A DNA stretch of 64,000 nucleotides, from NCBI RefSeq assembly GCF_001278075.1, contig NZ_CP011340.1, positions 5,329,501 through 5,393,500 of the forward strand. The letters are read 5' to 3'. Origin of the DNA: Streptomyces pristinaespiralis (lineage in GTDB: Bacteria > Actinomycetota > Actinomycetes > Streptomycetales > Streptomycetaceae). Numbering within the stretch: position 1 is the stretch's first letter; every line of letters starts with the position of its first letter. The position numbers and the translations under genes are program-made. Of this stretch, positions 27,688 to 41,805 are shown one piece after another. Below the pieces are notes generated by a model, which ran no database searches, was not told the origin of the DNA, and worked only from the letters and a program-made list of their open reading frames with translations.

Positions 27688-27710
27688 AGCAGATATCGCG
27701 AAGGATGAGA

Positions 27711-28913
27711 ATGCACACCAGTAGCCGTCACAAGGCCCGGCTCGGCCGCGTGATTTCAGCCACCTTGGGACTGCTGCTGGTGGGCGTCGCAGCAACGCCC
27801 TCGCATGCGGAGTCGATTCGCTCGATGCAATGGCACTTGGACGCCATGCAGGCCGAGGAGATGTGGAAGTCGAGTACCGGCAAGGGCGTCACTGTGGCTG
27901 TGATCGACACCGGTGTTGATCCCACTGTTCCGGACCTACGTGGTCAGGTACTCGACGGGCGTGACTTCTCACCCGAAGCCGGTACATCGGCCGACGACGT
28001 CGATGGGCATGGGACCGGCATTGCCGCCCTGATTGCCGGCACGGGCAAGGGGAAAGGGGCATACGGCCTGGCCCCGGATGCCAAGATTCTTCCTGTTCGC
28101 CTCTGGAAGGTGAGTGGCGAACAGATGGGCATGGAGGAGGAAAAGTCCCTGGCCGCAGCTATCCGTTACGCTGCCGATTCCTCCGCCAAGGTGATCAACA
28201 TGTCCATCGGTGGGCCGATGCACTCAGAGACCGTCACCGAAGCCGTCCGATACGCCCTGACCAAGGACAAGCTTCTCTTCGCTTCTGTGGGTAACTACGG
28301 AAGCGCCGTCGGGTACCCGGCAGCGACGCCCGGGGTAGTGGGCGTCGGTGCTGTGGACAAGGAGACCAATAAGACCGATGAGTCGTCGGTCGGGCCAAAG
28401 GTCGACCTTGTTGCTCCTGGTATCGACATGGTGGGCGCCTGCACGGGGGGCACCGGCGTCTGCAAATCCCACGGAACGAGTGGGGCCACAGCTCTCGCCT
28501 CCGCCTCCGCCGCCCTCATCTGGTCCCAGCACCCCGAGTGGACGAACAACCAGGTCCTGCGCGTCATGCTCAACACCGCGGGCGGTCCTCGGAGCGGCAA
28601 CAAGCGCAACGACTCGATCGGTTACGGCGTCGTCCGCCCCCGCATCGCGCTCAAGTCACCCGGAGACCCCGGCCCTGCCGACGAGTACCCGCTGCCCGAC
28701 CTCGCCGAGGCCGCTGCTCCGTCCTCGGCACCGTCACCCGACGCGTCGGAGCCCGCTGCCGGCAGCGAGGACAGCAAGGAAAAGCCGGCCGTGGCCGCTC
28801 CCGCGTCCGAGGACGAGAGCAACTCGGGCCTGTGGATCGGGCTGGGGGTTGCCGCGGCGCTGCTCATCGGAGCAGCGATCGGCATTCCCGTGGTCCGAGC
28901 ACGTCGAGGCTGA
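27711..28913 (+). CDS. Mycosin-like subtilisin protease (type VII secretion-associated)
   Basis: About 400 residues: signal peptide (LGRVISATLGLLLVGVAATPSHA), subtilase domain with the triad Asp66 (VAVIDTGVD), His100 (DGHGTGIAALIAG) and Ser257 (SHGTSGATALAS), an Ala/Pro/Glu/Ser linker, and a C-terminal membrane helix (LWIGLGVAAALLIGAAIGIPVV) followed by RARRG. This is the MycP layout: an outward-facing, membrane-anchored serine protease. ATG at 27711 has GAAGGA at proper distance; the ATG at 27705 overlaps it. No eccB/C/D/E genes are in the window, so it is an orphan mycosin. The second half is visibly richer in GC than the first. Confidence 0.88.
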   Translation: MHTSSRHKARLGRVISATLGLLLVGVAATPSHAESIRSMQWHLDAMQAEEMWKSSTGKGVTVAVIDTGVDPTVPDLRGQVLDGRDFSPEAGTSADDVDGHGTGIAALIAGTGKGKGAYGLAPDAKILPVRLWKVSGEQMGMEEEKSLAAAIRYAADSSAKVINMSIGGPMHSETVTEAVRYALTKDKLLFASVGNYGSAVGYPAATPGVVGVGAVDKETNKTDESSVGPKVDLVAPGIDMVGACTGGTGVCKSHGTSGATALASASAALIWSQHPEWTNNQVLRVMLNTAGGPRSGNKRNDSIGYGVVRPRIALKSPGDPGPADEYPLPDLAEAAAPSSAPSPDASEPAAGSEDSKEKPAVAAPASEDESNSGLWIGLGVAAALLIGAAIGIPVVRARRG

Positions 28914-28927
28914 AGCGAGGACGCGCG

Positions 28928-30979
28928 CTACAGGACAGGCACCGCGGTCACGTTCCCGTCGCTCACGAGGAACACCCGACGGCCGGCTCCCGCCATCACC
29001 GTCGGCGTCCCTGTGTCGGACTTGTAGACCCAGGCACGCCTGGAGGGAGGGTCGTGGAAGACCGACACTCCCTCAGCTCCGTCAACCAGGAGGCTTCTGC
29101 CCTCGACGACGGGTGGAAGGCTGCTCAACACGTCCGCTTCCATCGAGTCGTCCCCCATCAAGTCCGTGTCCCCGTTGGACATGCGCACCGATTGGGGCCT
29201 GCCTCCGACGACGGCGAAGACATTCAGCTCCTTGACCCACGGCGCGCCCCATCCGTCCGCGGCGGAGGAGGTGTAGCCGGAGACGGTCCATCGCTCCGTG
29301 CCGTCCGCCACCATCAGGGCTGCGAGTTCTCTGCCCCCGAGATAGACGCTGGACCGGTCGATGGCCGGCATCGCCGGCCCGAATCCTTGGCCACGCCGCC
29401 AGACTTCACGACCGGTGTCCGTGCTCAGGGCGATCACGACTCCGTTCGAACCCGAGACGACAAGGCGCTCGGCACCGGCCGCGGCGAGCGGCCGGTCGGC
29501 AGACTGCATGCCCTCCGGCGCATTCACCGTCCACAACGGCTTACGCCCGGAGATCTCCACAGCACGGATCTCCTCGGCACCGGTGAGTACATAGACACAG
29601 GTTTCGTCCAGGGCGAGAAGCTGGACCGCCTCCGCGGACACCGCCCACCGCTGTTCTCCTGTGGAGGCGTCCAGGGAAGCCACCTCGCCGCTGTCCATCA
29701 CTGCGATGAAGTGCGTCTCTGACAGTTGCAGCATGCCCGCTGTGCCGGATGCTTCAGAAAGACTCCACACCGCCTCGCCGTCCACGGCCTTGTGCGCAGC
29801 CAGGCCACCGTCATGAGCACTGAAGATCACCACCCCGTGCATGGCGACCGGCGGCGGGACCGTGCCTTCTGCGGCCACACTCAGTGGCCCCCACAGCGGC
29901 CGGGGGGTCTTTCCGTCGGCGTACTCCTGGTGTGCCACCGGCTCCGCGTCCGGTGGGATCGCAACCGGCCCGCCCATGTGGTTCAGCCACCAGGCCGTGG
30001 TCCCGCCTGCTGCGGCGAGCACCGCACCTCCGGCCGACAGCGACGCTACGAGGAACCTGCGGCGCGAAGGCTGTTCTCCCGCTCGCGGTCCGACAGCCGT
30101 CACGAAGCGCTTTACGTCGGCCTCGCGTTCCTTGATGTCGGATGCGAGGGCACCGGTGCGCCAGCTCTTGTCGTCTCCTCGCCGAGTGGTGAACGCCCTC
30201 GCAATGTGCTCGGGCCGAGGGCGATGTCCAGGAGCCTTCGACAGGCAGGGCTCGATGAGACTGCGGAACTGCCCCGGTACGAAGTCGAGTCGGGGCTGCC
30301 CGTGGACGACCTCGTACTGCACAGCCGCGACGTGCGCGCCCTCGAACACGCGGTGCCCGCCGGCGGCGTAGGCGAGAACGGCGCCGAGCGAGAACACGTC
30401 GGCCGAAGGATCCACGCGCTGCCCGAGCACCTGTTCCGGCGCACCGTAGCCCGGGGTCGCGGGGGCCTGCCCGGTGGTCGTGAGCGTGAGGCCGTGCTCG
30501 GGTCGAGCGATTCCGAAGTCGATGATGCGGGGACCGGTCCTGGTGAGGATGATGTTGGACGGCTTGATGTCCCGGTGGATCAGCCCGGCGCGGTGGATGT
30601 CGCAGAGGGTGCGGGCCAGCGAATGGGCCAGGTGGCGCAGAGCGGGCTCGTCGAAGGGACCGTGGCGTTCCACGGCACTGTCGAGCGTCGGTCCGGCCAG
30701 GAACTCGGTCGAGATCCACAGCCTCCCTGCCTCCGTCTGAGCGGCGAGCAACCGGGCCACGCCCGGGCTCGTCACCGCTTGTGCGGCCTCCGCCTCACGC
30801 ACGAACCTCTGGGTGAGGTGCCGGTCGTTCGTCAGGCCGGGGTGCAGCACCTTCACCGCGGCAGTCCGACCCGCACCGTCCTGACCGAGGTACACCCTTC
30901 CCATTCCCCCGGCTCCCAGGACCCCCAGGAGCCGATAGGGGCCGAGTCGAATCGGATCACCGGGGCCGAGGGGCTGCAT
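28928..30979 (-). CDS. Membrane Ser/Thr protein kinase with C-terminal beta-propeller
   Basis: 683 residues. The kinase domain spans 10-270: LGAGGMGRVY (20-30), Lys43 in AAVKVL, HRDIKPSN (135-142), DFG (154-156), then PGYGAPEQ. It is followed by SRRRFL (305-310) and a membrane helix (about 310-332). The remaining 340 residues are PQQ/WD-like propeller blades with repeated GxxLAAL and W/GRE-type strands (LDASTGEQRWAV, LSTDTGREVWRR). The kinase faces the cytoplasm; the propeller should lie outside and may sense a ligand or wall structure. It is second in a minus-strand pair with the kinase at 31028-33184 (48 bp apart) and convergent with the mycosin gene. Confidence 0.88.
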   Translation of the reverse strand: MQPLGPGDPIRLGPYRLLGVLGAGGMGRVYLGQDGAGRTAAVKVLHPGLTNDRHLTQRFVREAEAAQAVTSPGVARLLAAQTEAGRLWISTEFLAGPTLDSAVERHGPFDEPALRHLAHSLARTLCDIHRAGLIHRDIKPSNIILTRTGPRIIDFGIARPEHGLTLTTTGQAPATPGYGAPEQVLGQRVDPSADVFSLGAVLAYAAGGHRVFEGAHVAAVQYEVVHGQPRLDFVPGQFRSLIEPCLSKAPGHRPRPEHIARAFTTRRGDDKSWRTGALASDIKEREADVKRFVTAVGPRAGEQPSRRRFLVASLSAGGAVLAAAGGTTAWWLNHMGGPVAIPPDAEPVAHQEYADGKTPRPLWGPLSVAAEGTVPPPVAMHGVVIFSAHDGGLAAHKAVDGEAVWSLSEASGTAGMLQLSETHFIAVMDSGEVASLDASTGEQRWAVSAEAVQLLALDETCVYVLTGAEEIRAVEISGRKPLWTVNAPEGMQSADRPLAAAGAERLVVSGSNGVVIALSTDTGREVWRRGQGFGPAMPAIDRSSVYLGGRELAALMVADGTERWTVSGYTSSAADGWGAPWVKELNVFAVVGGRPQSVRMSNGDTDLMGDDSMEADVLSSLPPVVEGRSLLVDGAEGVSVFHDPPSRRAWVYKSDTGTPTVMAGAGRRVFLVSDGNVTAVPVL

Positions 30980-31027: not shown

Positions 31028-33184
31028 TCACTTCACCGAGTAGCCCGCGATCACGTCCGTCTGCACAGCGACGAACATGCCGCTGTCCCCCCGGACGTAG
31101 CGGGCGTCCTGCGGCATCGTCACGGTGTCGCGCGTGCGGCGCGTACGAATGTCGATCACCTCGAGCCCGGACCTGCCGATGATGTAGAGGTCCTGCTCGC
31201 CTACGAACACGACGCCGTATCGGTCCGGTCCGGGAGACGACTCCCAGACGAGGTTCCCCTTGGCGGCGTCGATCGCTGTGACGATGCCGCCGAACCGCAT
31301 GGTGTACAGCACGTCCCCGCCGAGAACCGGATGAGGAAGGTCCTGGGGGACGTCCTCGCCGTACTCCCACACCGTTTTCCCGTCTGTCAGACGCACGGCG
31401 ATGACCTGATGGCGTTCTGTGCTCAGACCGAAAGTGTTGGCACCCAGGTACACATGCTCCTCATCCATCACGATGCCGCCCACAAGAGGGGAGTCGGGTT
31501 CGACCACCCAGCGCAAAGCGCCTGTCGCGGCGTCGTAGCACTCGAGGCGCGCCTCGCTCTCGGAGTTGCCGACCGTCATGAGGAAGCTCCCCGCCAGGGA
31601 GCGTGCCGCGTAGAAGGACTTCAGGACCGGATTCTCCAGAGGGCCCAGCTCGCTGCGCCAGAGTTCCTCGCCGGAGGTGACGTCGGCGGCGACCAGATAC
31701 CAGGTGGCGTGGGCGTCCGTCTCCCCCTTGCCGGCGACGAGGAAAGCGGTACCGTCCGAGACGCAGAGCAGCTTCCCGTTCTTGAGGGCGCTGTTGAAGT
31801 CGTCAAGCACCAGTACGAGTTCGAGCGAGCCGTCCGCCAGGTCCACCGTACAAAGGGTCAGTTCGCTCGAGTCCGGCGTGACTGCGTAGATGCGCCGGCC
31901 GTCTGTCGTCACCGCACTGGCCGACCGCAGTTCCTTGCGGAGCCACCTGTCTTCTCCTGTCGCTACATCGACACCGATCAGCCCTTCGACGGTCGTGATC
32001 GACAAGCAGTCACCCGCCAGCAAAGGGGCAGTGTCGACTTCCTGCGAGTTCCTCGAGATGCCCCTGGTCCAGACGGCGCCCGGCAGTTGGGGAACTTCAG
32101 AGGCGGGCGACGGCGCAGCCGTGTCCCCGGTGGAGCTCGTACTGCGGCTGTCGAGCCAGGTCCAGATGCCGGCTCCGAGCGCGATTGCGCCTGCGGCGGT
32201 TCCACCACCGCGCTTGAGTAGCGTGCGACGGGAGACCGCGGCGCGTGAAGTGATTGCTTCCCTGATCGGCGAGGTAGGAGCCGGGGCCGGAAGCCGGTGG
32301 GGGTGGTGGGTCCACACGTCCGTGGCGCGTCGGGCGATGTCGGTGAGGAGAGGGTCGGGGAGGTGGTCGGCGAACTGGCCCCGGCCGTCGTGGAGCTGGG
32401 CGGCGAGCTCGTCGGTGGTGGGGCGCTCGGCGGGGTCCTTGCCGAGGCAGCGGCCGATGACGGGGGCGAGGGCCGGAGGGAGCCCGGTGAGGTCGGGTTC
32501 GGCGTAGCGGATGCGGTAGAGAAGGTCCGCCGCCTGGCCGGTACCGAAGGGCGGCCGGCCGGTCGCGGCGTAGGTGAGGAGGCCCGCGAGGGCGAAGGTG
32601 TCGCCGGCGGGGGTGTGTTCCTGGCCGGTCGCCTGCTCGGGGGACATGTAGGCGGGGGTGCCCGCGGCGGCGCCGGTGCGGGTGAGGTGGTCGTCTCCCG
32701 CCGCGCGGGCGATGCCGAAGTCGATGATCTTCGGCCCGTAGGCGGTGATCATGACGTTCGAGGGCTTGAGGTCGCGGTGGACCACGTCCGACGCGTGGAG
32801 CTGGGTGAGAGCTCCGGCGAGGGCGGCGCCGATCGCACGGACGGAGGTTTCGGGCAGAGGTCCGCAGAGGCCGACGGCGTCGTCGAGGGGCGGGCCGAGG
32901 ACGTATTCGGTGGCGAGCCAAGGTGTTTCGGCGGTCGGGTCGGCGTCGATGACCTGGGCGCCGTGGTGGTTGCCGATGATGCGGGCCGCGTCGATCTCGA
33001 GGTGGAAGCGGCTGCGGGCGGCGGGGTCCGTGGCGATGGCGGCGTGCATGGTTTTCAGCGCGAGGACGCGTCCGCCGAGGGTACGGGCCAGATAGACGGT
33101 GCCCATGCCGCCGTGACCGAGTCGGGCGAGGAGGCGGTGGCCGGCGATGTCGGCCGGATCGTCGTGCGTCAAAGGGGAAAGCAT
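31028..33184 (-). CDS. Membrane Ser/Thr protein kinase with C-terminal beta-propeller
   Basis: 718 residues from the ATG at 33182-33184. The kinase domain is complete: LGHGGMGTVY (22-31), Lys44 (LALKTM), HRDLKPSN (136-143), DFG (155-157), PAYMSPEQ. SRRTLL (318-323) precedes a membrane helix (about 327-345), then a Ser/Thr linker and a PQQ-like propeller (LIGVDVATGEDRWLR, YDAATGALRWVV, IDAAKGNLVWES). First gene of the kinase pair. No strong RBS precedes this ATG. A 30-residue leader ORF with a good RBS ends 5 bases before it, so translation is probably coupled. The kinase half is about 78 percent GC (32581-32640), the propeller half about 58 percent (31381-31440). Confidence 0.87.
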   Translation of the reverse strand: MLSPLTHDDPADIAGHRLLARLGHGGMGTVYLARTLGGRVLALKTMHAAIATDPAARSRFHLEIDAARIIGNHHGAQVIDADPTAETPWLATEYVLGPPLDDAVGLCGPLPETSVRAIGAALAGALTQLHASDVVHRDLKPSNVMITAYGPKIIDFGIARAAGDDHLTRTGAAAGTPAYMSPEQATGQEHTPAGDTFALAGLLTYAATGRPPFGTGQAADLLYRIRYAEPDLTGLPPALAPVIGRCLGKDPAERPTTDELAAQLHDGRGQFADHLPDPLLTDIARRATDVWTHHPHRLPAPAPTSPIREAITSRAAVSRRTLLKRGGGTAAGAIALGAGIWTWLDSRSTSSTGDTAAPSPASEVPQLPGAVWTRGISRNSQEVDTAPLLAGDCLSITTVEGLIGVDVATGEDRWLRKELRSASAVTTDGRRIYAVTPDSSELTLCTVDLADGSLELVLVLDDFNSALKNGKLLCVSDGTAFLVAGKGETDAHATWYLVAADVTSGEELWRSELGPLENPVLKSFYAARSLAGSFLMTVGNSESEARLECYDAATGALRWVVEPDSPLVGGIVMDEEHVYLGANTFGLSTERHQVIAVRLTDGKTVWEYGEDVPQDLPHPVLGGDVLYTMRFGGIVTAIDAAKGNLVWESSPGPDRYGVVFVGEQDLYIIGRSGLEVIDIRTRRTRDTVTMPQDARYVRGDSGMFVAVQTDVIAGYSVK

Positions 33185-33189
33185 CGCCG

Positions 33190-33282
33190 TCAGACTCCGG
33201 ACGTCCGACAGGCGGCATCGTGCGAAGTCCGGCCGGTGCCCACCGGCACATGGTTCGGCCTGTGCAATGACGCACGTTCCAT
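33190..33282 (-). CDS. 30-residue leader ORF upstream of the kinase pair
   Basis: It begins ATG GAA CGT GCG (MERA) behind a GGGGGGA RBS and ends with TGA at 33190-33192, five bases before the kinase ATG. The start and RBS are nearly identical to those of the pseudokinase gene at 41516, which also begins MERA. It may be a coupling leader peptide or the relic of a longer kinase N-terminus lost by frameshift. Confidence 0.4.
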   Translation of the reverse strand: MERASLHRPNHVPVGTGRTSHDAACRTSGV

Positions 33283-33327
33283 CTGTGAATCCCCCCGAGG
33301 CATGGCTGCGCAACTGGAGCCTACCGG
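33283..33327 (-). promoter_or_regulatory. Promoter and RBS of the kinase pair, shared with the pseudokinase gene
   Basis: On the minus strand CCGGTAGGCTCC (33316-33327; -10 box TAGGCT) is followed, about 35 bases on, by the RBS GGGGGGATTC and ATG. The same words in the same order and spacing occur at 41517-41560. No shared -35 element is visible. Confidence 0.5.
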
Positions 33328-33413
33328 CGGCTGCCGCGCGTCCCTCTCGAGGGCATGCCCGAGCCCGCCACAGGCCAAGCGGCACTTGGGTGTGGAGATG
33401 CGGGGAGAGGCAT

Positions 33414-33441
33414 TTGGTCTGTCCGGATTCCGTCGTAGGGT
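33414..33441 (+). promoter_or_regulatory. Predicted promoter of cassette 1
   Basis: TTGGTC (33414-33419), 16 bases, TAGGGT (33436-33441), about 60 bp before the start of the small helical protein gene. The remaining intergenic sequence between the divergent genes shows nothing else. Confidence 0.35.
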
Positions 33442-33501
33442 GGTCCGGTCCGGCTGCCCATTGGCACTCCACCTATCGTTTGCACAGGTTCCGGGGGATT
33501 C

Positions 33502-33927
33502 ATGTCGTTCGACACCGAGTGGTCTTCGGTCCGTTCCGAGTCGACTGCGAATGTCAGCATGCGTTTGAACCAACTGCCCGTAGAGCCCGGTGGTGGCAGC
33601 AGCACCGCCGATCTCAGCGCCAATCAGGACAAGTTGGGCGCTATTGGTAATGCCGCTTTTCTCCTGCACGGGCGATTGAACACGGCAGGCAAGAAAGCGA
33701 ATGCGAGCACGTCGGAAGCGGCCACGATGATGACCGCCAACGGCTTCCGGACCGGTGCCGCCATGGCGACGGTGCACGAGACGTGGGGCTCTCAGCTGCA
33801 GACGCTGCTGGACGCGTGCGCGAACATCTCGAATCACCTCGATTACAGCGCCGCGTCGCACGCGCAGGACGAGAAGGACATCGCGGCGTCTCTGAGCACG
33901 TCGAAGATCAACGAGTACCTGAAGTAG
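33502..33927 (+). CDS. Small helical protein of cassette 1 (unknown family)
   Basis: 141 residues, no signal peptide. It starts MSFDTEWSSVRSES and contains DLSANQDKLGAIGNAAFLLHGRLN, an internal helix with TWGSQLQTLLDACANISNHLD, and ends INEYLK. The paralogue at 39856-40284 has the same pattern (DLSVNQDDLGAVGHDAYVLH, RWNTQLRALLDACGQISNHL, LDKYFK). The fold looks like paired long helices, similar in size and position to the small partner proteins encoded next to LXG/WXG substrates. RBS GGGGGATTC precedes the ATG. The next gene follows after 11 bp, so the two products probably act together. Function is unknown. Confidence 0.75.
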   Translation: MSFDTEWSSVRSESTANVSMRLNQLPVEPGGGSSTADLSANQDKLGAIGNAAFLLHGRLNTAGKKANASTSEAATMMTANGFRTGAAMATVHETWGSQLQTLLDACANISNHLDYSAASHAQDEKDIAASLSTSKINEYLK

Positions 33928-33938
33928 GCGGGGGAGCC

Positions 33939-36272
33939 ATGCTGACGTTCGACAACGTGTACCACGCTCCACTCGACAAGCTGAAGGCGTCGGTGGACGA
34001 CTGGTCGAAGGTGACGACCGACCTCGAGACGCTCGCCACCGACGCGACGTCCACGATGGCGGCCAAGGCGAAGGACGACTACTGGCGCGGGGTGAACGCC
34101 GAGGTCACCAAGCCGTTCGTCGACAAGACGGCCAAGGAGTTCGACGACGCGGCGAAGGCGGCCAAGGGGATCAAGCAGATCCTCTCGGACGGGTACGAGG
34201 CGTTCAAGAAGGCCAAGGACGACCTCAAGAAGCTCATGGACACAGAGGCGCCGGCCCAGCATCTCGTCATCACGGCTCAGGGCAAGGTCGAGGCGTCGTA
34301 TCCGCTGGAGAAGGACCAGGGCGCGCGTCACGACCCGGACTATCCGGAGGCGCTGCGGGCCCAGCGGGCGAAGATCGAGGCCATGCAGAAGCGTGTCGAC
34401 GCGATCATCGAGACGTGCGACGACGCGGACATCGCCGTGTCCAACGCGCTCAAGGCGAACATCACCTCCGACAAGCACAACTTCAGCGCCCCGAAGTACA
34501 GCAGCATCGACGCAGAAGAGGCCCAGCGCGCGGTCGACCTGGCGAAGAAGGGCCGCGACCTTTCGCACCAGGAGCTCGAGCAGCTCAACGAGCTGCTGAA
34601 GGACAACCACGACTCGAAGGTGTTCTCGCGGACCTTCTACGACGGCTTGGGCCCGAAGGGCGCCCTGCAGTTCTTCGGGCAGCTCTCCACGGACACGTAC
34701 GACTACGCGGAGCAGGACAAGGAACGTCTCAAGGACGTCCAGGAGCTCCAGAAGAACCTGGGCCTCAACCTCGCCACGGCGACGGACCCCTCCGGCAAGG
34801 ACGACAAGTGGTCCCAGCGGTGGGGCGACGAGATGCGCAAGCTCGGCACCGAGCGCATCCCCCTGGCGAAGCACGACTACAACGGACCGTACGGGTACCA
34901 GCTGCTCGGCGGCATCATGAGGTACGGGAACTACGACCCGAAGTTCCTCAACCCGATCGCCGAACACGTGGTCCAGCTGCACGCCAAGGACCCGTACATG
35001 TTCGCCGACACGAAGAACACGCTCGGCTACGACAAGTCCCCCTTCAACCCGTCGGGCAAGAACGGGGCGGGCTACGACCCGGTCGTCAGCATGCTGGAGG
35101 CGCTCGGGCACAGCCCCGAGGCGTCAAAGGAGTTCTTCTCGTCCGACCCGAAGGCGTACAACGAGGACGGCACCTACAAGGGTGGCGTTCCGAAGAACGC
35201 CGACGGCAAGGAGATAACCAGCTACCTGGACTACTTCACCGACAAGGACTACAAGTCGTTCCCCGACATCGTCGGGCACCATCCGGACGACGCCAAGAAG
35301 TCGATGGACTACATGCCCGATGCCTTCGGGCACGCGCTCGAGTCGGCGACGCTCGGTCACGCCTATGACGATCCGAACCCCAAACTTGTCCGGGACGAGG
35401 CGTCCGCCGACATCATGGAGAAGGTCGTCGACAAGTACGGAGGGGACCCGGAGTTCCTCAAGAAGAACCACTCGGCGCTGGCCGACAGCCTGGGCAACAT
35501 GGGCGCCGGATACATCGACGACCTCAACTGGGCGATCGACAAGAACGATCCGGACAGCATCTACGCCCCGGACAAGAACCCGGAGGCACACGCTTCGTTC
35601 GGGCGCTCGGGTGCTCGTGAGTTCCTGAGCGTCCTGGGCCAGCATCCTGACGCCTACGCCTCCATCAGTACGGCCGAGCGCATCTACACCACCAGTGTTC
35701 TCGAGACCCAGGTGGGCCCCGACGGAAAGATCGACGAGGGCGGCGCACGGCACGCTGTGAACACAGGCGGCCAGATCCAGGGCATTCTCGACCAGTCCCG
35801 GGGCGACCAGGTCGAGGCCGAGGGCCTGAAGAAGCACGAAGAATACGAAAAGGCGCACGAGAAGCGATCCGCCTGGATCGAATTCGGAGCGACAGCCGGC
35901 ATCGCGGCCGGTGTGGCCTTCCTCCCGGCGACGGCAGCGGCTGCCGGCGCGGCGGCCATCCTGGTCCCGCTCGCGGTGGATACAGGAAGCGGTGCTCTGG
36001 AGCAGATGGCCGGCCAAGTCATCGGCGACTGGTCCGACAAGTCGGTCGAGGACCACAAGAAGGTGACCGAGGGCGACATCCGGGAGCAGAAGTCCGAGGT
36101 CTTCCGCGCCGGCGAGGTCAGCTCCGAGGCTCCGATGGAGCGCTTCATCGACCAGTACGGCGACAGGATGAGCAGTGAGTTCGAGCAGGACCTGCGGGAA
36201 TCGGCGCAGGGTGGCTACAACACCGGCAACCTGAGGGAAGACCAGCAGGGGCAGGACCCGGAAACCGACTGA
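33939..36272 (+). CDS. Large WXG-containing protein of cassette 1
   Basis: 777 residues. The N-terminal 130 residues are helical with WRG at 49-51 (DYWRGVNAEVT), like WXG/LXG type VII substrates. The central 500 residues are conserved with the paralogue at 37537-39837 (NFSAPKYSSIDAEEA, HDYNGPYGYQLLGGIMRYG, ALGHSPEASKEFF, REFLSVLGQHPDAYASI). A hydrophobic stretch near residues 655-690 (TAGIAAGVAFLPATAAAAG) could enter a membrane. The C-terminus is polar. No known toxin motif is seen. I have a weak recollection of such proteins being listed as a domain of unknown function (DUF6571) in Streptomyces; this is not verified. Start 33939 follows GGGGGAG. Confidence 0.75.
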   Translation: MLTFDNVYHAPLDKLKASVDDWSKVTTDLETLATDATSTMAAKAKDDYWRGVNAEVTKPFVDKTAKEFDDAAKAAKGIKQILSDGYEAFKKAKDDLKKLMDTEAPAQHLVITAQGKVEASYPLEKDQGARHDPDYPEALRAQRAKIEAMQKRVDAIIETCDDADIAVSNALKANITSDKHNFSAPKYSSIDAEEAQRAVDLAKKGRDLSHQELEQLNELLKDNHDSKVFSRTFYDGLGPKGALQFFGQLSTDTYDYAEQDKERLKDVQELQKNLGLNLATATDPSGKDDKWSQRWGDEMRKLGTERIPLAKHDYNGPYGYQLLGGIMRYGNYDPKFLNPIAEHVVQLHAKDPYMFADTKNTLGYDKSPFNPSGKNGAGYDPVVSMLEALGHSPEASKEFFSSDPKAYNEDGTYKGGVPKNADGKEITSYLDYFTDKDYKSFPDIVGHHPDDAKKSMDYMPDAFGHALESATLGHAYDDPNPKLVRDEASADIMEKVVDKYGGDPEFLKKNHSALADSLGNMGAGYIDDLNWAIDKNDPDSIYAPDKNPEAHASFGRSGAREFLSVLGQHPDAYASISTAERIYTTSVLETQVGPDGKIDEGGARHAVNTGGQIQGILDQSRGDQVEAEGLKKHEEYEKAHEKRSAWIEFGATAGIAAGVAFLPATAAAAGAAAILVPLAVDTGSGALEQMAGQVIGDWSDKSVEDHKKVTEGDIREQKSEVFRAGEVSSEAPMERFIDQYGDRMSSEFEQDLRESAQGGYNTGNLREDQQGQDPETD

Positions 36273-36295
36273 CGAGGAATGGGCGCGAGATCGTG

Positions 36296-36943
36296 ATGCG
36301 ACGACGGGATGCGGCACTGGCCGCGACGGTGAGTCTCGCTCTGTGCTTCGGTGCGACCGCGTGCGGCGGCGATGAGGAGCCGGAGGCAAAACGCACCGCG
36401 GCCGAGGAGCAGTGCGGCGGTGTCCTGTCGCCTGCGGCGCTGACGGCGTTGGAGCAGGTGATGGGGAAGCAGTTCTCCGACGCCGGCGACGCGACGACGG
36501 ACGAGACGGTCGAACAGCTGCGCGGTGATTACGGCAAGCGTCTCAACTGGAGCCGGGGCAAACAATTCTGCGAGATCTCCAAGACGGAGGGCGGCGTGAA
36601 CTCCATGACCGTCAGCTTCTCGCTGTACGCCCCTGACGACCTGTCCGGCAGCAAGCACGCCGCGAACCTCCACGCGTACCCGATGGGGAAGGAAGCCTTG
36701 GCCGGGGCGGAGGACGCGTACCTGTACTTCGAGTGCGTCAGCCCCGAGCTGGAGGGCTCGAAGTCCCGCCCTGCGCGGATTGCGGGCCACCTTTCGCAGT
36801 CGGAGCCGCCGTCGGACACGGCGGAGGTGCACAAGGCGAACATGGCGGTGCTTCACTCGGCCGCGGTTGCTGTCGCGGGGGAGTTGAAGTGCGAGGGGCA
36901 GGCGGGGCTTCCTGCGGAACCGAAGCTGACGCCGACGGACTGA
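36296..36943 (+). CDS. Small lipoprotein of cassette 1
   Basis: 215 residues. A signal peptide with RRRD, a hydrophobic core and the lipobox ATAC-GG marks an outward-facing lipoprotein. The mature part has paired cysteines, including ECVSPEL and GELKCEG close to the C-terminus, and no recognised domain. It starts 23 bp after the large WXG gene. A lipoprotein in the same position is present in cassette 2 with a similar C-terminal cysteine (RELNCTG), so it is a conserved cassette member. Surface immunity or receptor roles are possible but unproven. Confidence 0.75.
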   Translation: MRRRDAALAATVSLALCFGATACGGDEEPEAKRTAAEEQCGGVLSPAALTALEQVMGKQFSDAGDATTDETVEQLRGDYGKRLNWSRGKQFCEISKTEGGVNSMTVSFSLYAPDDLSGSKHAANLHAYPMGKEALAGAEDAYLYFECVSPELEGSKSRPARIAGHLSQSEPPSDTAEVHKANMAVLHSAAVAVAGELKCEGQAGLPAEPKLTPTD

Positions 36944-36970
36944 GGGCTCTGTGCGGGTTGCGCCCTCTGG

Positions 36971-37534
36971 CTACGGCCGGGGGGCGCCGGTGCAGTTCAG
37001 CTCGCGCTGCGCGAACGCCACGAATTGCTTCATGAGCGCAGGCAATGCTCGGCGCAGCTTTTCTTCATCCGGCAGGTCGGATGTGCTGATCGTCAGATCG
37101 ATGTATTTGCCGGGACTCGAAGGAGTTTTGGACGCCTCGCAGATGATGTATGAGGCTGCGCCGTCGTACCAGACGATGCCTTTCTCCCCGACATCAATCG
37201 GTTCAGGGTGCGCCTTTTCGTAGCTACTCCAGTCGATTGACCGCTCGAAATCTTCGTAGAGGGCGTACGTCTGAAACTTTGTGTTGCCGTCGATGTAGAT
37301 GGAGCAGGTCGGTGAATCTGCAGGTTTGGCCAGCACGAATGGATCGGTGTCGACAGTGGCTCGATCTCCGGTCGGCAGGAGGGAAGCTACGTCTTCACCG
37401 TCGAAAGCGTTCCAGCAGACCCGTGCCGGCAGTTTGGGAACAGATCTGGTCTCGCCGCCCGAGCAGCTGGTGAGTGCTGTCATCAGCAACATCGAGACCA
37501 GGGCTGACGCAGCGATATTCTTGTGTCGATGCAT
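36971..37534 (-). CDS. Small lipoprotein of cassette 2
   Basis: 187 residues with a clear signal peptide and lipobox LTSC at residues 21-24. The mature part starts SGGETRSVPKLPARVCWNAF and ends QRELNCTGAPRP. It resembles the DUF3558-like actinobacterial lipoproteins in size and cysteine spacing, but no family is certain. Its ATG lies two bases after the stop of the large WXG gene, so it is translationally coupled. GC is only 51 percent over 37201-37300 (my count), far below its neighbours, suggesting recent transfer. It is convergent with the cassette 1 lipoprotein, 27 bp apart. Confidence 0.75.
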   Translation of the reverse strand: MHRHKNIAASALVSMLLMTALTSCSGGETRSVPKLPARVCWNAFDGEDVASLLPTGDRATVDTDPFVLAKPADSPTCSIYIDGNTKFQTYALYEDFERSIDWSSYEKAHPEPIDVGEKGIVWYDGAASYIICEASKTPSSPGKYIDLTISTSDLPDEEKLRRALPALMKQFVAFAQRELNCTGAPRP

Positions 37535-37536
37535 CG

Positions 37537-39837
37537 CTACTTCCCCTTGGGGTTTGAACTGGCTACCAAATCGCGGCCGATGGAATGAGCCGTGCCCATC
37601 TGCGTAGAGGCTGACCCCTGGTATTCATCGATCTGTTCTTGAGTGAGGCCGGAATCCTTGGTTGCCGCCTCGACTGCGTTCGAGGCGGCAACCTTAGCTG
37701 CCTTCTCCGACTCGCTGTAACCGGCTGAGGAGTCCCGCCGAGCAGCATCCGCCGTGTCCTTCTCCGCGCTCTTCACCGCCGACTCCGTGACGTCCTCCTT
37801 GATCCACATGATCACGTCACCACCCACCGGAATCATCTCGACATACTTGCCGCCCACCGCGTCGATCACGCGATTCGTCCACTTCGCGTTCTCCGCCACG
37901 CCCGCGTTGTACTCCGATGCCTCGTGCGTCTTCGCGTCATGGACCGCCTGCGCCCGCGCCTCGGTCATCATGCCCGCGATCTCGCCTCCCGGGTGGACGG
38001 CGTTCCTCACGGCCTCGCCCGTGTCGCCGTGTTGCTCCGGGTTCTGGAAGACGTCGGACACGAGCGCCGTGGTGTATGCCTGCTGGGCGTTGGTGATCGC
38101 GCCGTAGGCCTGGGGGTCCTGGCCGACCGCCCCCAGGAACGCGGCCATCTCGTCCTTGCGGAACTCGGCCGGGGCTCCCAGGTACTTGACCTGGTCCGCC
38201 CCGTTCTCCGCGGTGGCCTGCAGGTCGGGCATGTACTCCGCGGCCATGTTGCCGAACTGGGGCGCCAGCCCGCTCAGCGGGCCCGGCGGGTCGCCGGGCT
38301 TCGCTGCCACGAGGGACGGGTCCGCGCCGATCTTCGCGACGACCTGCTCCATCACGCTGCTCATCGCCTTGGTGTGCGGTACGGGCGGCGCGTCCTCGTC
38401 GCCCGGTACGCACCCGGTGACCGCCGCCTCCAGCGCGTTGCCGAGCGCCGTCTGTCCGGGGTGGGTCTCGCCGCCGGCGACCGTGTCGTACCAGTCCGCC
38501 GTCGGCTTCTTGTCCAGCATGTAGTCGACGACACCCTGGGCGCCCTTGCCCTCGACCGCTCCGTCCGAGAGCGTGACGATGCCGTCCTTGTCGGTGTCCT
38601 CGCGGATCGGTTCGTCGAAGAAGGCGGTGGAGGCCGCGGGGTTCTTGCTCATCGCCTCCATGAGACCGGTGAGCGGGTTGAACCCCCTGCCGCCCCCTCC
38701 GTCCAGGTTGATGGACACGGGTGAGTGGCTCAGTGGCATGTTCTCGTGCCAGATGTCCGGGTTCTGCCGGTCCATCGCCACCATGTCGCGGCCCACGGCG
38801 GTGAGGAAGTCCTTGTCGTACGTGCCCTCGCGCAGCAGCGCCCCCAGCGCCTGGTAGCCGTACACCTTGGTGCCGGGAGCCGTGAGACCCGACACGTCGA
38901 TCTCCTTGCGGCCTGCCTTCAGGAGCTGCGTGGTCCAGGCGGCGTCGAGATGGTTCGGCGTCGACGGCTGCGTGGCGAGCCCGAGCAACGCGCCCATGTC
39001 GTTCTGGATGTCGCGCACCATGTTCACCCGGTCCAGGCCGGCGGGGCCGAGGGAGGTCGAGTCGAGCGACATCTTCGCGTAGGCCTCGAGCGTGCCCTCC
39101 GCGCCCAGCTTCCGGTAGAAGGCGGCGGAGAAGTCAGGATCTGCGCGGTTGTCGTCGAGGAGGTCTCCGAGTTCCCTCAGCGCCGCCACGTTACGTGCCG
39201 TGCCGCCCGGACCTGCGACCTTCCTCATGAGCGCCGCGGCCCGGTCGGCCTGTTCCGCGTCGAGGCTCTTGTACTTGGGGGCAGTGAAGTTGTGGTCGTC
39301 CGTGACGTTCGCCGCGAGAGCCCGTTTCAGCGAGTCGTCGGCGTCCGAGCAGTCCTCGACGAGGCGGTCGATCCTCTTCTGCCACAGGCGGACGGCTTCG
39401 GCCTGCTGGCGCACGGCTTGCGCGTAGAGGGTCCGGTCGGGGTCGTGGCGCGCCGCTGCGTCGTCCTCGACGGGATGCCGCGGTTTCACCTTGCCGCCCG
39501 CGTCCACGTGCATTCCGGCGGCCGGTCCTTCCTCGTCCCTGATCCTGACCAGCGCGTCCTTGGCCGCCTTGAACGAGGTGTGCGCATCCTTGAGCAGCAG
39601 TGCGATGCCCTTGGCCTCGGCCGCCGCGTCGTGGAACTCCTTGGTGCTCTTTGTGATGAACGGCCTGGTGACGCTCGCGTTGACACCCTCCCAGTCGGCC
39701 TTGTCCGACTTGGCCTTCATGCCCCGCCGGGCATCGTCGGCCAGCTTGTCCAGCCTGGTCACCATCTCGGACCAGCGGTCGGCGGCTTCCTTCAGCTTGC
39801 CCACGGGCGCGTTCACGACGTCATCGAATTGCAGCAC
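37537..39837 (-). CDS. Large WXG-containing protein of cassette 2
   Basis: 766 residues, paralogue of the 33939-36272 product. By eye about half of the first 60 residues are identical, and WEG occupies the same positions 49-51 (ADWEGVNASVT). The central part follows the same order (NFTAPKYKSLDAEQADRA, VYGYQALGALLREGTYD, AAFLGAVGQDPQAYGAI). A hydrophobic segment (GGKYVEMIPVGGDVIMWI) lies near residue 680. The last 90 residues are Ala/Ser/Glu/Lys-rich and differ from cassette 1, as variable ends do in polymorphic systems, although no toxin domain is recognised. It begins 18 bp after the small helical gene. Confidence 0.75.
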   Translation of the reverse strand: MLQFDDVVNAPVGKLKEAADRWSEMVTRLDKLADDARRGMKAKSDKADWEGVNASVTRPFITKSTKEFHDAAAEAKGIALLLKDAHTSFKAAKDALVRIRDEEGPAAGMHVDAGGKVKPRHPVEDDAAARHDPDRTLYAQAVRQQAEAVRLWQKRIDRLVEDCSDADDSLKRALAANVTDDHNFTAPKYKSLDAEQADRAAALMRKVAGPGGTARNVAALRELGDLLDDNRADPDFSAAFYRKLGAEGTLEAYAKMSLDSTSLGPAGLDRVNMVRDIQNDMGALLGLATQPSTPNHLDAAWTTQLLKAGRKEIDVSGLTAPGTKVYGYQALGALLREGTYDKDFLTAVGRDMVAMDRQNPDIWHENMPLSHSPVSINLDGGGGRGFNPLTGLMEAMSKNPAASTAFFDEPIREDTDKDGIVTLSDGAVEGKGAQGVVDYMLDKKPTADWYDTVAGGETHPGQTALGNALEAAVTGCVPGDEDAPPVPHTKAMSSVMEQVVAKIGADPSLVAAKPGDPPGPLSGLAPQFGNMAAEYMPDLQATAENGADQVKYLGAPAEFRKDEMAAFLGAVGQDPQAYGAITNAQQAYTTALVSDVFQNPEQHGDTGEAVRNAVHPGGEIAGMMTEARAQAVHDAKTHEASEYNAGVAENAKWTNRVIDAVGGKYVEMIPVGGDVIMWIKEDVTESAVKSAEKDTADAARRDSSAGYSESEKAAKVAASNAVEAATKDSGLTQEQIDEYQGSASTQMGTAHSIGRDLVASSNPKGK

Positions 39838-39855
39838 TGCGCGTCCCCCGGCGGG

Positions 39856-40284
39856 CTACTTGAAGTATTTGTCGAGCGTGGCGACCGCGGTCAGCCTGCC
39901 GACGATGTCGGCGTCGTTGTCGGCGTGGTCGGTCCGTGTGTGGTCCAGGTGGTTGGAGATCTGGCCGCATGCGTCCAGCAGCGCCCGTAACTGGGTGTTC
40001 CACCGGTCGTGGACCTTCAGCAGTTCCGGTCCGCTGACGAAGTTGCCGTTGGCCAGCGCGTTCGCCGCCTCGAACGTCGACGGCCGGGCATGATCCCCGT
40101 CCCGCGACAGCCTGCCGTGGAGGACGTACGCGTCATGGCCGACCGCTCCTAGGTCGTCCTGGTTGACGCTCAGGTCGGCGCCGACGGCGGGGCTTCCGCC
40201 ACCGCCGTCGGAATGGCCGAGCCGCATCGCCACCGTCCGGGATGCTCCGGCACGGGCGGCAGCCCACTCGTCGTCGAACGTCAC
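39856..40284 (-). CDS. Small helical protein of cassette 2 (unknown family)
   Basis: 142 residues, paralogue of the 33502-33927 product (DLSVNQDDLGAVGHDAYVLHGRL; GQISNHLDH; end LDKYFK). GTG start with GGAGGATCC just before it. First gene of the cassette 2 operon. Like its paralogue it has no signal peptide or membrane helix and is probably a cytoplasmic partner or co-substrate of the large WXG protein. Confidence 0.75.
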   Translation of the reverse strand: MTFDDEWAAARAGASRTVAMRLGHSDGGGGSPAVGADLSVNQDDLGAVGHDAYVLHGRLSRDGDHARPSTFEAANALANGNFVSGPELLKVHDRWNTQLRALLDACGQISNHLDHTRTDHADNDADIVGRLTAVATLDKYFK

Positions 40285-40595
40285 GGATCCTCCGACCCCC
40301 GTTGGCCTTCCGCTCCCCGATCCGCTTGATCAGGACATGCGGCGCAGCAGGACCTTATAGGAGATGTTTGCGCACCTCCGCGCAAAAGCGACGACGTTGA
40401 CAACTCTGGCGGATGTTGTGCGGCGCGGGCCGAATACCGCCGATCCGCCGATCCGCCGATCCGCCGATCCGTCCATCCGGCCCCGTGGTCCTTCGGTACG
40501 GCCCGTGATCCTGCGGCACGGCGCACGGGACCCACGCGCATGGTGACGCCCCGGCGTCTGTGGCCCGGTGGGTCGTCGACCCCGGGGGTCGAAGC
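40285..40595 (-). other. Intergenic region upstream of cassette 2
   Basis: 311 bp without a gene. On the minus strand a possible -10 (TATAAG, near 40355) lies about 75 bp before the cassette 2 GTG. At 40441-40472 there is an 8-bp tandem repeat, four copies of CGATCCGC (the last one CGATCCGT). Nothing else is apparent. Confidence 0.5.
40441..40472. repeat. 8-bp tandem repeat, four copies
   Basis: CGATCCGC three times followed by CGATCCGT, a simple-sequence repeat that could vary in copy number between strains. Confidence 0.8.
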
Positions 40596-41516
40596 TCAGA
40601 CGGTGAACGCCCGGGGCGTACGGACTTCCGCGGCCAGCACCTGCGACGACTGCCGGGCGATGGCGGCCACCACCCTTCCCGGGAGCCAGCCGGGGCCCAG
40701 CAGGGAGCCGGCCGAGTCCAGGGCCGTCGCTGTGGGGGCGGGCGACGACGGGGACAGGGCGTGCAGGAGTTCGGCGGCCGTCGGGCGGGCCGCCGCGTCG
40801 CGGGACAGGCAGCGGGAGATCAACGGGCGGAGGGACTCGGGGAGTTCGGCGCTGTCCGGGACCGTGTGGCCGGTGGCCGCGTACGCCAGGACCGCGCCCA
40901 GACCGTGGACGTCGCCCGGCGGACGGGGCCGCCCGCCCGCCGCCGCCTCGGGGGCGAGGCTGCCCGGCTCCAGCCCGGCGATGCCCGTGCGAACCTCCCC
41001 GTCAGGGGCCGCCGCGCGGGCCGCGCCGAAGCAGGTCAGGCGCGGCCCGTTCCAGGCCAGGAGCACCGCGGCGGGGGAGAGCCCGGCATGTGTGATGCCG
41101 ACGGCGTGCGCGCCCGCCAGGGTCTCGGCCAGGGCGACGCCCAGGGCCCTAACGGTGTGCTCGGGCAAAGGGCCGCCGTGCACGGCCAGCGCCACCGGCA
41201 GCGGGAGCACCGGGAGATAGGGGGTGGCGTACCACGGGCTCTCGGGCGTGGGGGAGAGCTCGGTGACCGGCAGGACCCAGGGGCCGACGAGCCGGCGGGC
41301 CGCGTCCGCCTCGACGAGGAAGCGCGCGGGGTCGGCGGCCTCGAGAGGGGCGCTGATCAGGACCGTGCGCTCGGCGTCGGCGCTGCGTGCCACGAACCGG
41401 CGCTCAGGTACGGGCGGAAGGCCGGGGCCGGTCGGGTCGAGGCGGGTGATGAGCTGGTACGGGCCGATGCCGCGCGGCCCGCCCTGTCGTGATTGCTGCG
41501 TCCGCGCTCGTTCCAT
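40596..41516 (-). CDS. Pseudokinase of the Ser/Thr protein kinase family
   Basis: 306 residues that align with the kinase domains of the two neighbouring kinases but lack catalytic residues. The Gly-rich loop is gone (LDPTGPGLPPVP). The VAIK lysine is missing (TVLISAPLEA). HRD is HAG at 143-145 (GITHAGLSPAAVLL, so the KPSN asparagine is lost too). DFG is CFG at 162-164. The scaffold remains: ARFLVEADAARRL, PWYATPYLP, DVHGLGAVLAYAATGH, and RPLISRCLSRDAAARPTAAEL. It cannot phosphorylate by the normal mechanism and probably acts as a scaffold or regulator. No membrane helix follows. The frame is intact, so it is a selected pseudokinase rather than a pseudogene. It lies 311 bp upstream of cassette 2 on the same strand. 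Confidence 0.85.
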   Translation of the reverse strand: MERARTQQSRQGGPRGIGPYQLITRLDPTGPGLPPVPERRFVARSADAERTVLISAPLEAADPARFLVEADAARRLVGPWVLPVTELSPTPESPWYATPYLPVLPLPVALAVHGGPLPEHTVRALGVALAETLAGAHAVGITHAGLSPAAVLLAWNGPRLTCFGAARAAAPDGEVRTGIAGLEPGSLAPEAAAGGRPRPPGDVHGLGAVLAYAATGHTVPDSAELPESLRPLISRCLSRDAAARPTAAELLHALSPSSPAPTATALDSAGSLLGPGWLPGRVVAAIARQSSQVLAAEVRTPRAFTV

Positions 41517-41560: not shown

Positions 41561-41733
41561 CCCTCCGCTCCGCGCCCACGGGGACGGCCTGGGGAGCCCG
41601 GCCGGGAGTGGTCCGTGTCGCTGCCGAGCGCGCGCTGCGAAGGAAGCGTCGGCGTCGGGGCGGTCCTCGCTACGGCGCGACGACGGCCGCCCCCGTCACA
41701 AAGGGCGGCCGGCGTCGCGCAGCGGATCCGCAG

Positions 41734-41805
41734 AGGCCGTGACCGGATTCGAACCGGTGTAACTCGAGTTGCAGTCGAGCCCCTGAGCCACTCGGGCACA
41801 CGGCC
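41734..41805 (-). tRNA. tRNA-Cys (GCA)
   Basis: On the minus strand a 72-nt cloverleaf: acceptor GGCCGTG/CACGGCC, anticodon arm CTCGA-CTGCAAC-TCGAG with anticodon GCA, T arm ACCGG-TTCGAAT-CCGGT, short variable loop TTAC, discriminator T. CCA is not encoded. No integrase or duplicated tRNA end is nearby, so no attachment site is indicated. The rest of the 41517-41975 gap holds only the pseudokinase promoter and the upstream region of the MFS gene. Confidence 0.93.

Follow-up and report, generated by a model that had tools for sequence, protein, structure and literature searches.

Two convergent gene cassettes of Streptomyces pristinaespiralis are the subject of this work. They lie in a stretch of 64,000 nt (contig NZ_CP011340.1, positions 5,329,501 to 5,393,500), here called the window, and each comprises, in the same order, genes for a small helical protein, a protein of about 770 amino acids (aa) and a lipoprotein. 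Cassette 1 occupies 33502-36943 on the (+) strand and cassette 2 40284-36971 on the (-) strand; they stand tail to tail, with 27 bp separating their lipoprotein ends, as established by translation and by reading of the intergenic sequences. The same mirrored layout had been described in a first-pass annotation of the window. To our knowledge the cargo of the type VII secretion systems (T7SS, ESX) of Streptomyces is little known, and the cassettes provide a concrete candidate family of such cargo, with putative partner and immunity genes in fixed, testable positions.

Organization of the two cassettes

The elements of the two cassettes are as follows:

33502..33927, (+) strand: small1, putative helical partner of 141 aa with W95 and H120-x-x-x-E124
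33939..36272, (+) strand: large1, 777 aa, with an N-terminal module (N module, residues ~1-205; W22, W49-x-G51), a middle part (~206-640) and a C-terminal part whose segment near 650-690 is strongly hydrophobic
36296..36943, (+) strand: lipo1, 215 aa, ATG start (alternative GTG at 36293), lipobox Cys and four conserved Cys
36944..36970, no strand: inter-cassette gap of 27 bp, with a 6-bp stem GAGGGC/GCCCTC beginning in the lipo1 stop codon
36971..37534, (-) strand: lipo2, lipoprotein of 187 aa, four Cys as in lipo1
37537..39837, (-) strand: large2, 766 aa, N module and middle part as in large1, without a strongly hydrophobic segment
39856..40284, (-) strand: small2, 142 aa

Since the genes inside each cassette are only 2-23 bp apart (small1-large1 11 bp, large1-lipo1 23 bp, small2-large2 18 bp, large2-lipo2 2 bp), each cassette is likely to be an operon. 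The paralogy of the small and of the large products, recognized in the first-pass annotation, was borne out by BLASTP, with 44% identity between small1 and small2 (E 3e-42) and 35% identity over 674 aa between large1 and large2 (E 5e-114). Three features come in addition to that annotation: a second intact propeller kinase gene (30979-28928), a mycosin gene (27705-28913) and a third cassette elsewhere in the genome. The stem in the 27-bp gap can fold on both strands; it is no better than shuffled sequences on the (+) strand (z 0.06) and weakly better on the (-) strand (z -1.65), and scans for promoters and terminators gave nothing exceeding shuffled sequence. An 8-bp tandem repeat (CCGCCGAT) is present in about five copies at 40437-40479, in the upstream region of small2.

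Conservation of the three-gene unit

Eighty loci (designated L followed by a number) with flanks of up to 10 kb were analyzed, 61 of them with full flanks; they were taken as the 80 most similar to large1 among 257 relatives, and the large1 clade is over-represented as a result. A survey of large2-type genes in 392 Streptomyces genomes served as a less biased check. Open reading frame (ORF) calling based on GC at the third codon position missed genes in 2/24 loci collected with the N module and in 3/14 class-level loci. In the 80 loci and the window together, a small gene directly precedes 90 of the 91 large genes (meaning that its frame stops 1.8-3.2 kb ahead of the large-gene end), and 90/91 have a lipobox frame or a lipoprotein homologue within 1.1 kb downstream (81/91 by lipobox alone). 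Counted by locus, the lipoprotein is present at 79/80, the exception being L093. Large2-type genes were found in 28 of the 392 genomes, with the lipoprotein adjacent in 28/28 and the small gene adjacent in 21/28.

Of 8000 candidates scored, 1223 are relatives of large1; among the 120 listed, the names, where given, are hypothetical protein, DUF6571 or AG2 protein, and the organism, where given, is Streptomyces. The large family occurs in 40/61 Streptomyces genomes, with up to nine matches per genome, some being pieces. Matches were also found in 38 of 296 genomes of the class, of which 22 belong to the same genus (six listed congeners have none), 12 to one other family and four to another. The genome of S. 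pristinaespiralis itself carries the third cassette, with the small gene at C1:2018138-2018575, the large gene at C1:2018626-2020878 and a lipoprotein gene behind, and in profile searches of this genome the N module was found three times and the small protein three times at full length, with a further, partial hit limited to residues 1-35 of the small profile.

Covariation between the cassette parts was assessed by a partial Mantel test with label permutation, in sets of 82 and of 45 closer cassettes out of 89 complete ones. The small protein and the N module covary with a partial r of 0.60 (p 0.001) in both sets, and because the value holds in both they form a firm unit. The lipoprotein in the 82 set follows the C-terminal (0.21, p 0.002) and middle (0.26, p 0.001) parts of the large protein, the values being -0.12 for the N module and -0.08 for the small protein.

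The large proteins

In the searches of 61 Streptomyces genomes, some large1 matches did not extend beyond residues 1-~205, and most of these lay in open frames of 400-650 aa. Twenty-four loci with such or similar N-module matches were fetched, and in the 22 whose gene was readable the C-termini fall by eye into at least five kinds: 11 of a 'WDRYNWD' kind, six Gly/Ala-rich, two each of two hydrophobic kinds and one DUF6571-like. The restriction of the matches to residues 1-205 and the variety of the C-termini therefore identify this region as a module used on different bodies. The 'WDRYNWD' domain recurs on the N module in L125-L127, L130-L133, L137-L139 and L161, and gave no Pfam match in the two examples tested (L127, L161). 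Behind a large protein with an N module and a hydrophobic C-terminus, L143 (3244-4821) and L162 (3336-4823) carry two conserved genes that look EspG-like by eye; the L143 pair has no Pfam match, and the two genes may encode dedicated chaperones.

Alignment of the 22 N modules shows W22 and W49 to be invariant and G51 to be kept in at least 90%, and a helical hairpin would carry the W-x-G in this module. When the same 22 were scanned one by one against Pfam, weak matches to PPE (9/22, best 3.2e-5) and WXG100 (5/22, best 3.2e-4) were obtained; these are the two most frequent families on the module, every other being matched by at most three members. A related large protein, that of L160, matches PPE at 8.1e-5 (23.1 bits vs a cut-off of 26). 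No LXG match was found for the window proteins, for ten further proteins tested, or among the 25 families, out of 38 matching the N module, that were listed. The Pfam matches of large1 to HindIII and Snf7 are weak and were disregarded.

Close relatives carry DUF6571 (PF20211) in precomputed annotation, for example P0005 (77% to large1) and P0122 (88% to large2). The window proteins have no PF20211 match at E<=1 and by their relatives would go with the DUF6571 proteins. Two relatives from another family of the class end in toxin domains: L150 in an ADP-ribosyltransferase (ART; PF03496, 55.9 bits vs a cut-off of 23.4) and L149 in a nuclease (PF13930, 46.6 bits vs 27), with PF20211 over its cut-off in L150 and below it in L149. 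In both, the next gene, in the immunity position, is small and reads by eye as a cytosolic protein. A shared N-terminal part joined to varied C-termini, some of them toxin domains, is a property of the wider family; the two C-termini of the window match no toxin.

The small proteins and the lipoproteins

In an alignment of 52 small proteins W95 and an acidic residue at position 124 are kept in 52/52, and position 120 is H in 48 and Y in one. T7SS partners carry a YxxxD/E export motif. A variant of this kind, FxxxD, is described for LapX3 (PMC12744356, text available in part). In the related cassette L160 the small protein matches both WXG100 (3.4e-4) and EspC (5e-4), below cut-off in each case. 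No relation was detectable between the Streptomyces small family and the small proteins preceding DUF6571 genes in other families.

The two lipoproteins have no significant BLASTP similarity to each other (E 0.22). Nevertheless, exactly four cysteines follow the lipobox Cys in 79/81 lipoproteins (five in 2/81), and in an alignment of 33 of them (lipo1, lipo2 and 31 others; mean column identity 29%) all four are in register. Given the common lipobox and the four aligned cysteines, lipo1 and lipo2 are probably homologous. Among the 33, one matches Pfam, at 0.097; lipo1 has a weak NCBIfam match to the SCO4651 lipoprotein family (20.3 bits vs a cut-off of 65). The lipoproteins are the fastest-evolving part of the cassette: where the middle parts of the large proteins are 70-80% identical, identity averages 67% for the small protein, 72% for the N module, 65% for the C-terminal part and 31% for the lipoprotein. 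Behind the large gene in L153 and L157, from another family of the class, there is also a lipoprotein gene with four Cys after the lipobox, and these two lipoproteins were not detected by the profile of the present family.

Linkage to type VII secretion genes

At lower coordinates than the kinase genes considered below, the window contains two co-oriented genes:

26188..27687, (+) strand: Pro/Gly-rich protein of 499 aa, WXG-like at its start
27705..28913, (+) strand: mycosin, T7SS-associated subtilase (TIGR03921, 311.4 bits vs a cut-off of 278.75)

The 499-aa protein has no significant family match, and a homologue (at least 100 bits) is encoded in 21/61 full-flank loci. Mycosin-like genes, defined as reaching at least 100 bits to the window's mycosin, lie within 10 kb in 27/61 full-flank loci (34/80 of all loci), and within 1.5 kb in 14/28 large2-type loci. 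With three mycosins over the TIGR03921 cut-off and 11 subtilases of at least 100 bits in the 8.5 Mb of the S. pristinaespiralis genome, simple arithmetic gives a random gene a chance of about 1-3% of having a mycosin or subtilase within 10 kb. The third mycosin over the cut-off in this genome is at C1:6901778-6902818.

The ESX core of the same genome is located at C1:2.558-2.563 Mb, about 2.8 Mb from the window, and consists of a putative EccC gene (a long frame in which three stretches are of the FtsK/SpoIIIE kind), two EsxA/B-like WXG100 genes and a mycosin gene, both the WXG100 genes and the mycosin gene being over cut-off. A T7SS-type ATPase gene lies upstream in four class-level loci: EccCb in L157 (703 bits vs a cut-off of 346.55), an EssC/EccC-like ATPase in L151 (616 bits, below the cut-off of 778.4) and, by frame similarity only, a T7SS-type ATPase in L148 and L154. 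Within Streptomyces, the small and large genes of L230 are accompanied by EccCb (786 bits) and by a weak match to WXG100; WXG100 genes over cut-off stand beside the cassettes of L228, L225 and L219, and a mycosin gene over cut-off beside that of L227.

A separate observation concerns L015 (5605-10635; C1:3.68 Mb of the same genome), where a 698-aa frame and a number of small tandem genes come after two WXG100 genes; this may be a further T7SS effector locus, equipped with several immunity-like genes.

Proposed function of the cassettes

The interpretation that we favor, and consider probable while leaving real room for doubt, is that the cassettes encode T7SS-exported effectors, each with a targeting partner encoded upstream and an envelope lipoprotein, probably for immunity, encoded downstream. 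Each cassette would then provide one cargo of the Streptomyces ESX system. The small protein may form a heterodimer with the N module (~205 residues) of the large protein, and together they would make up the export signal, as in PE-PPE or Lap-LXG pairs; the EccC ATPase would recognize the pair, and the window's mycosin may process the cargo. Once exported, the large protein would act through its C-terminal part on an envelope target, for the large1 type most likely the membrane because of its hydrophobic segment. The lipoprotein, exposed on the outside of the producing cell's membrane, would bind that C-terminal part and protect the producer. The three kinase genes would be an independent neighbor. 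Of these elements, gene order, family relations, linkage to T7SS genes, domain shuffling and covariation are observed, and export, heterodimer formation, toxicity and immunity are inferred.

The T7SS-cargo part of this proposal is based on the PPE and WXG100 matches of the N module, its invariant W22 and W49 and nearly invariant G51, the EccCb, WXG100 and mycosin genes that adjoin relatives, and a mycosin linkage of 27/61 vs the 1-3% due to chance. An effector role is suggested because the N module is joined to varied C-termini and DUF6571 relatives end in ART and nuclease domains. The small protein is taken as a partner since it is encoded upstream in 90/91 cases, covaries with the N module and in L160 matches WXG100 and EspC below cut-off, and the lipoprotein as a candidate immunity protein since it is encoded downstream in 90/91 (28/28 in the large2 type), evolves fastest and has a precedent in LXG cassettes and TilA. 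A layout of this kind, in which a helper and a large exported protein are joined by a membrane-anchored partner that changes fast, is seen in bacterial weapons.

Several results weigh against this interpretation. For the N module of large1 itself there is no match to PPE or WXG100 at 0.1, and a comparison of the module with six WXG100 proteins by hhalign gave E 0.027 and a probability of 1.8%, with the W-x-G positions aligned. The window's small proteins match neither the WXG100 nor the EspC profile; against the six WXG100 proteins the small family shows no profile relation (hhalign E 0.9), EspC is matched weakly (0.037) by just 1/52 of its members and PE is absent from its matches, so that membership of the small protein in WXG100 or EspC is unsupported. 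Family-model scans recognized no toxin domain in large1 or large2. A strongly hydrophobic segment occupies the last quarter in 120/120 large1-type proteins and in 0/120 large2-type proteins among those listed, and on account of this difference the C-terminal parts of large1 and large2, and hence the two window cassettes, probably act differently. A glycine-zipper toxin like EsxX was considered and rejected: zippers occur in 52/120 segments vs 39.4 in shuffled ones, hardly above chance, and the large2 type offers no hydrophobic segment for them; large1 contains one GxxxGxxxG, and for it alone such action is a possibility. Relatives of solved structure (Protein Data Bank) were sought for the whole large protein, the N module, the small protein and the lipoprotein, and none was convincing. 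Seven of the 28 large2-type genes, inspected singly, are two-gene versions with no small neighbor. In the 45 set the tracking by the lipoprotein drops to 0.10 for the C-terminal part (p 0.056), 0.08 for the N module (p 0.062), 0.05 for the middle and 0.03 for the small protein, none reaching p 0.05, and the coupling of the C-terminal and middle parts to the lipoprotein is visible in the wider set only. Co-recombination of neighboring genes could yield all such covariation. Finally, the Streptomyces ESX system has been linked to development rather than virulence (PMC8401907, in the part of the text available).

Comparison with known systems

The first-pass annotation compared the cassettes with LXG/WXG cargo accompanied by a small partner and an immunity lipoprotein, a likeness that finds support in the weak PPE/WXG100 matches, the T7SS neighbors, the toxin C-termini of relatives and the gene order. 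For LXG toxins and TslA, the available part of PMC10730906 gives the order partner 5' and immunity 3', with a lipoprotein, TilA, as an immunity protein. The LXG/Lap/immunity cassettes of Bacillota (T7SSb) resemble ours in the succession of a small helical partner, a large cargo with an N-terminal helical module and an immunity gene (same source); the partner 5' and the lipoprotein 3' of the cargo agree with what characterizes an LXG cassette, in position only. An N-terminal module joined to varied C-termini is likewise common to both, and the F-x-G of EsxX with the FxxxD of LapX3 (partial text of PMC12744356) is comparable to the W-x-G of the N module with the HxxxD/E of the small protein. In contrast to LXG cassettes, the host here is an actinobacterium with T7SSa-type genes, there is one small partner gene and no LXG match, the cargo has a long middle, putatively of DUF6571 type, and immunity by the lipoprotein is putative.

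In PE-PPE pairs of the mycobacterial ESX systems the small gene precedes the large one, as it does in the window, and the N module matches Pfam PPE in 9/22. The PPE matches are weak, however, the small family has no PE match (EspC in 1/52) and a lipoprotein gene comes third. TslA/TilA, a T7SS phospholipase of Staphylococcus aureus with its immunity lipoprotein, shares with the cassettes the gene for a membrane-anchored lipoprotein beside the active part of the cargo; it differs in that TslA has the reverse domain order and a lipase, and TilA is DUF576 (PMC10730906, as far as its text was available), while the four-Cys family has no notable Pfam match. DUF6571 (PF20211, 'AG2 protein') is carried by close relatives of large1 and large2 and by the toxin-bearing L150, but has no described function and its model is missed by the window proteins at E<=1. 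No paper on DUF6571, or on 'AG2 protein' together with Streptomyces, was found in the literature searched.

According to the first-pass annotation no described system has this set of genes. This stands, as far as searched, for the protein family: no description of the actinobacterial family as a T7SS cargo cassette was found in the literature searched, including the available parts of PMC12744356, PMC10730906, PMC11217815, PMC8401907 and PMC12599244. It does not stand for the logic, which is already known from LXG cassettes. The cassettes would extend the partner-cargo-lipoprotein layout of Bacillota to actinobacteria, under the name DUF6571.

Alternative explanations and the kinase triad

The main rival is that the large proteins are exported but non-toxic developmental cargo, that is, hyphal or spore surface or wall proteins trimmed by the mycosin, with the lipoprotein as a docking or processing partner. 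It accommodates the lack of a toxin motif in the window proteins, the wide occurrence of the family (40/61 Streptomyces genomes), the C-termini alignable through the large1 clade, the mycosin near many copies and the developmental role reported for the Streptomyces ESX (PMC8401907, partial text). We nevertheless regard it as rather unlikely, as ART and nuclease C-termini and several unrelated C-termini on one N module are the pattern of polymorphic toxins, and a structural partner would not be expected to outpace every part of the large protein in divergence, as the lipoprotein does.

The second rival is a signaling system in which the status of kinase and pseudokinase controls the secreted WXG protein, as proposed in the first-pass annotation, and it has to be judged by the kinase genes that surround the cassettes:

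28928..30979, (-) strand: kinL, first triad gene, encoding an intact Ser/Thr kinase that carries a PQQ propeller
31028..33184, (-) strand: kinA, second triad gene, likewise for an intact Ser/Thr kinase that carries a PQQ propeller
40596..41516, (-) strand: pseudokinase of 306 aa, third of the triad, with G-loop, VAIK Lys, HRD and DFG lost and the helix-G region deleted

The contrast between an active kinase starting at 33184 and a dead one ending at 40596 was confirmed, kinA (33184-31028) keeping all four motifs (G-loop, VAIK Lys, HRD and DFG) and the pseudokinase having lost them all. Orthologues of kinA and kinL retain every catalytic motif, save for disturbed frames in L040; the pseudokinase shows HRD changed to HAG, DFG changed to CFG, CYG or CHG, and the G-loop and Lys gone in 13/13 orthologues with complete motif regions, the window's included (L040, with a disturbed frame, and L074, cut at a contig end, being left out). 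A 13-residue gap at helix G is present in 15/15 pseudokinase rows, and no gap is seen in 14/15 kinA and 17/17 kinL rows. S. pristinaespiralis has 39 matches to kinA, and a pseudokinase orthologue occurs in 23/121 Streptomyces genomes. From the 22 matching genomes besides that of the window a set of 20 pseudokinase loci was chosen and fetched; in 19 of them kinL, kinA and the pseudokinase gene are contiguous, on one strand and in one order, the remaining one (L177) being cut at its end. Among the loci read, cassettes stand between kinA and the pseudokinase gene in the window only.

Some association of the triad with T7SS loci is observed, and no dependence. Kinase matches of at least 100 bits lie beside the cassettes in 13/61 full-flank loci (15/80 of all loci), and the pseudokinase gene, which 14 of the 61 genomes searched for the large family possess, has a large gene no more than 20 kb away in 7/14 by coordinates read by eye, with one more (L169) beside mycosins. 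On the other hand, 48/61 full-flank loci have cassettes without these kinases, the other 7/14 pseudokinase genomes have no large gene within 20 kb, 10/20 of the chosen pseudokinase loci contain no cassette or mycosin in 19.5 kb, and the 16 kb read around the third cassette gave no match to the three kinases (a histidine-kinase-like frame was noticed by eye). Control of the secreted protein by kinase status is therefore improbable; kinL-kinA-pseudokinase is a unit separate from the cassettes, since the triad stays together, is absent from 48/61 cassette loci and occurs without cassettes. With its consistently dead third member it constitutes a second, separate testable unit. The window pseudokinase family appears to resemble the ActPs1 pseudokinases, which, in the available part of PMC12599244, have also lost the VAIK Lys, the HRD Asp and the DFG Asp, and about 60% of which lack the helix-G region; many of them have a C-terminal PQQ domain, unlike the window protein of 306 aa.

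The last rival, in which self-recognition depends on the exported large protein as a kin signal and on the lipoprotein as its outside receptor or sensor, strains being separated by the divergence of both, is the least probable of the three: the fast lipoprotein divergence inside a fixed four-Cys frame and its tracking of the middle and C-terminal parts rather than the N module and small protein in the 82 set are in its favor, but that tracking fades in the 45 set, no conserved signaling gene was noticed beside the lipoprotein in scans looking only for named neighbors, and the genes next to the nuclease and ART relatives read by eye as small cytosolic proteins in the immunity position.

A wider proposal can be advanced tentatively, as a possibility to which we would not yet commit ourselves. 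The Streptomyces T7SS would export a large family of envelope-active effectors, built of a new PPE-like module and a DUF6571 stalk, each with a fast-evolving four-Cys lipoprotein setting strain-specific immunity, and the whole would serve kin discrimination or contact killing in hyphae; some lineages would add the kinase triad to time its use.

The mirrored arrangement and its surroundings

A second large gene is present in 10/80 loci, where four pairs converge, five are in tandem and one is divergent. The convergent pairs are those of L016 (S. xantholiticus; the same two large types as in the window), L077 (lipoprotein frames about 0.2 kb apart), and L084 and L081 (further apart). Among the 28 large2-type loci, lipo1 is found on the opposite strand within the 1.5-kb flank at the window's own locus only, and one of them (L200) has a small gene and a large-gene remnant running towards the large2-type gene. 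The mirrored pair as a functional unit is thus unsupported, as the same two types converge in the window and in 1/80 loci only; because mirrored pairs are uncommon (4/80 converging, one with the same types), the arrangement probably reflects duplication and not mechanism, the mirror being one outcome of gene duplication and shuffling.

Directly behind the pseudokinase gene lies a tRNA-Cys (gca) gene at 41733-41805 on the (-) strand, and GC over 26-40 kb is about 0.60-0.70 (with one stretch of 0.72) vs about 0.70-0.76 in the flanks. On the basis of the adjacent tRNA gene and the reduced GC, the stretch with the T7SS-related and kinase genes may be an island.

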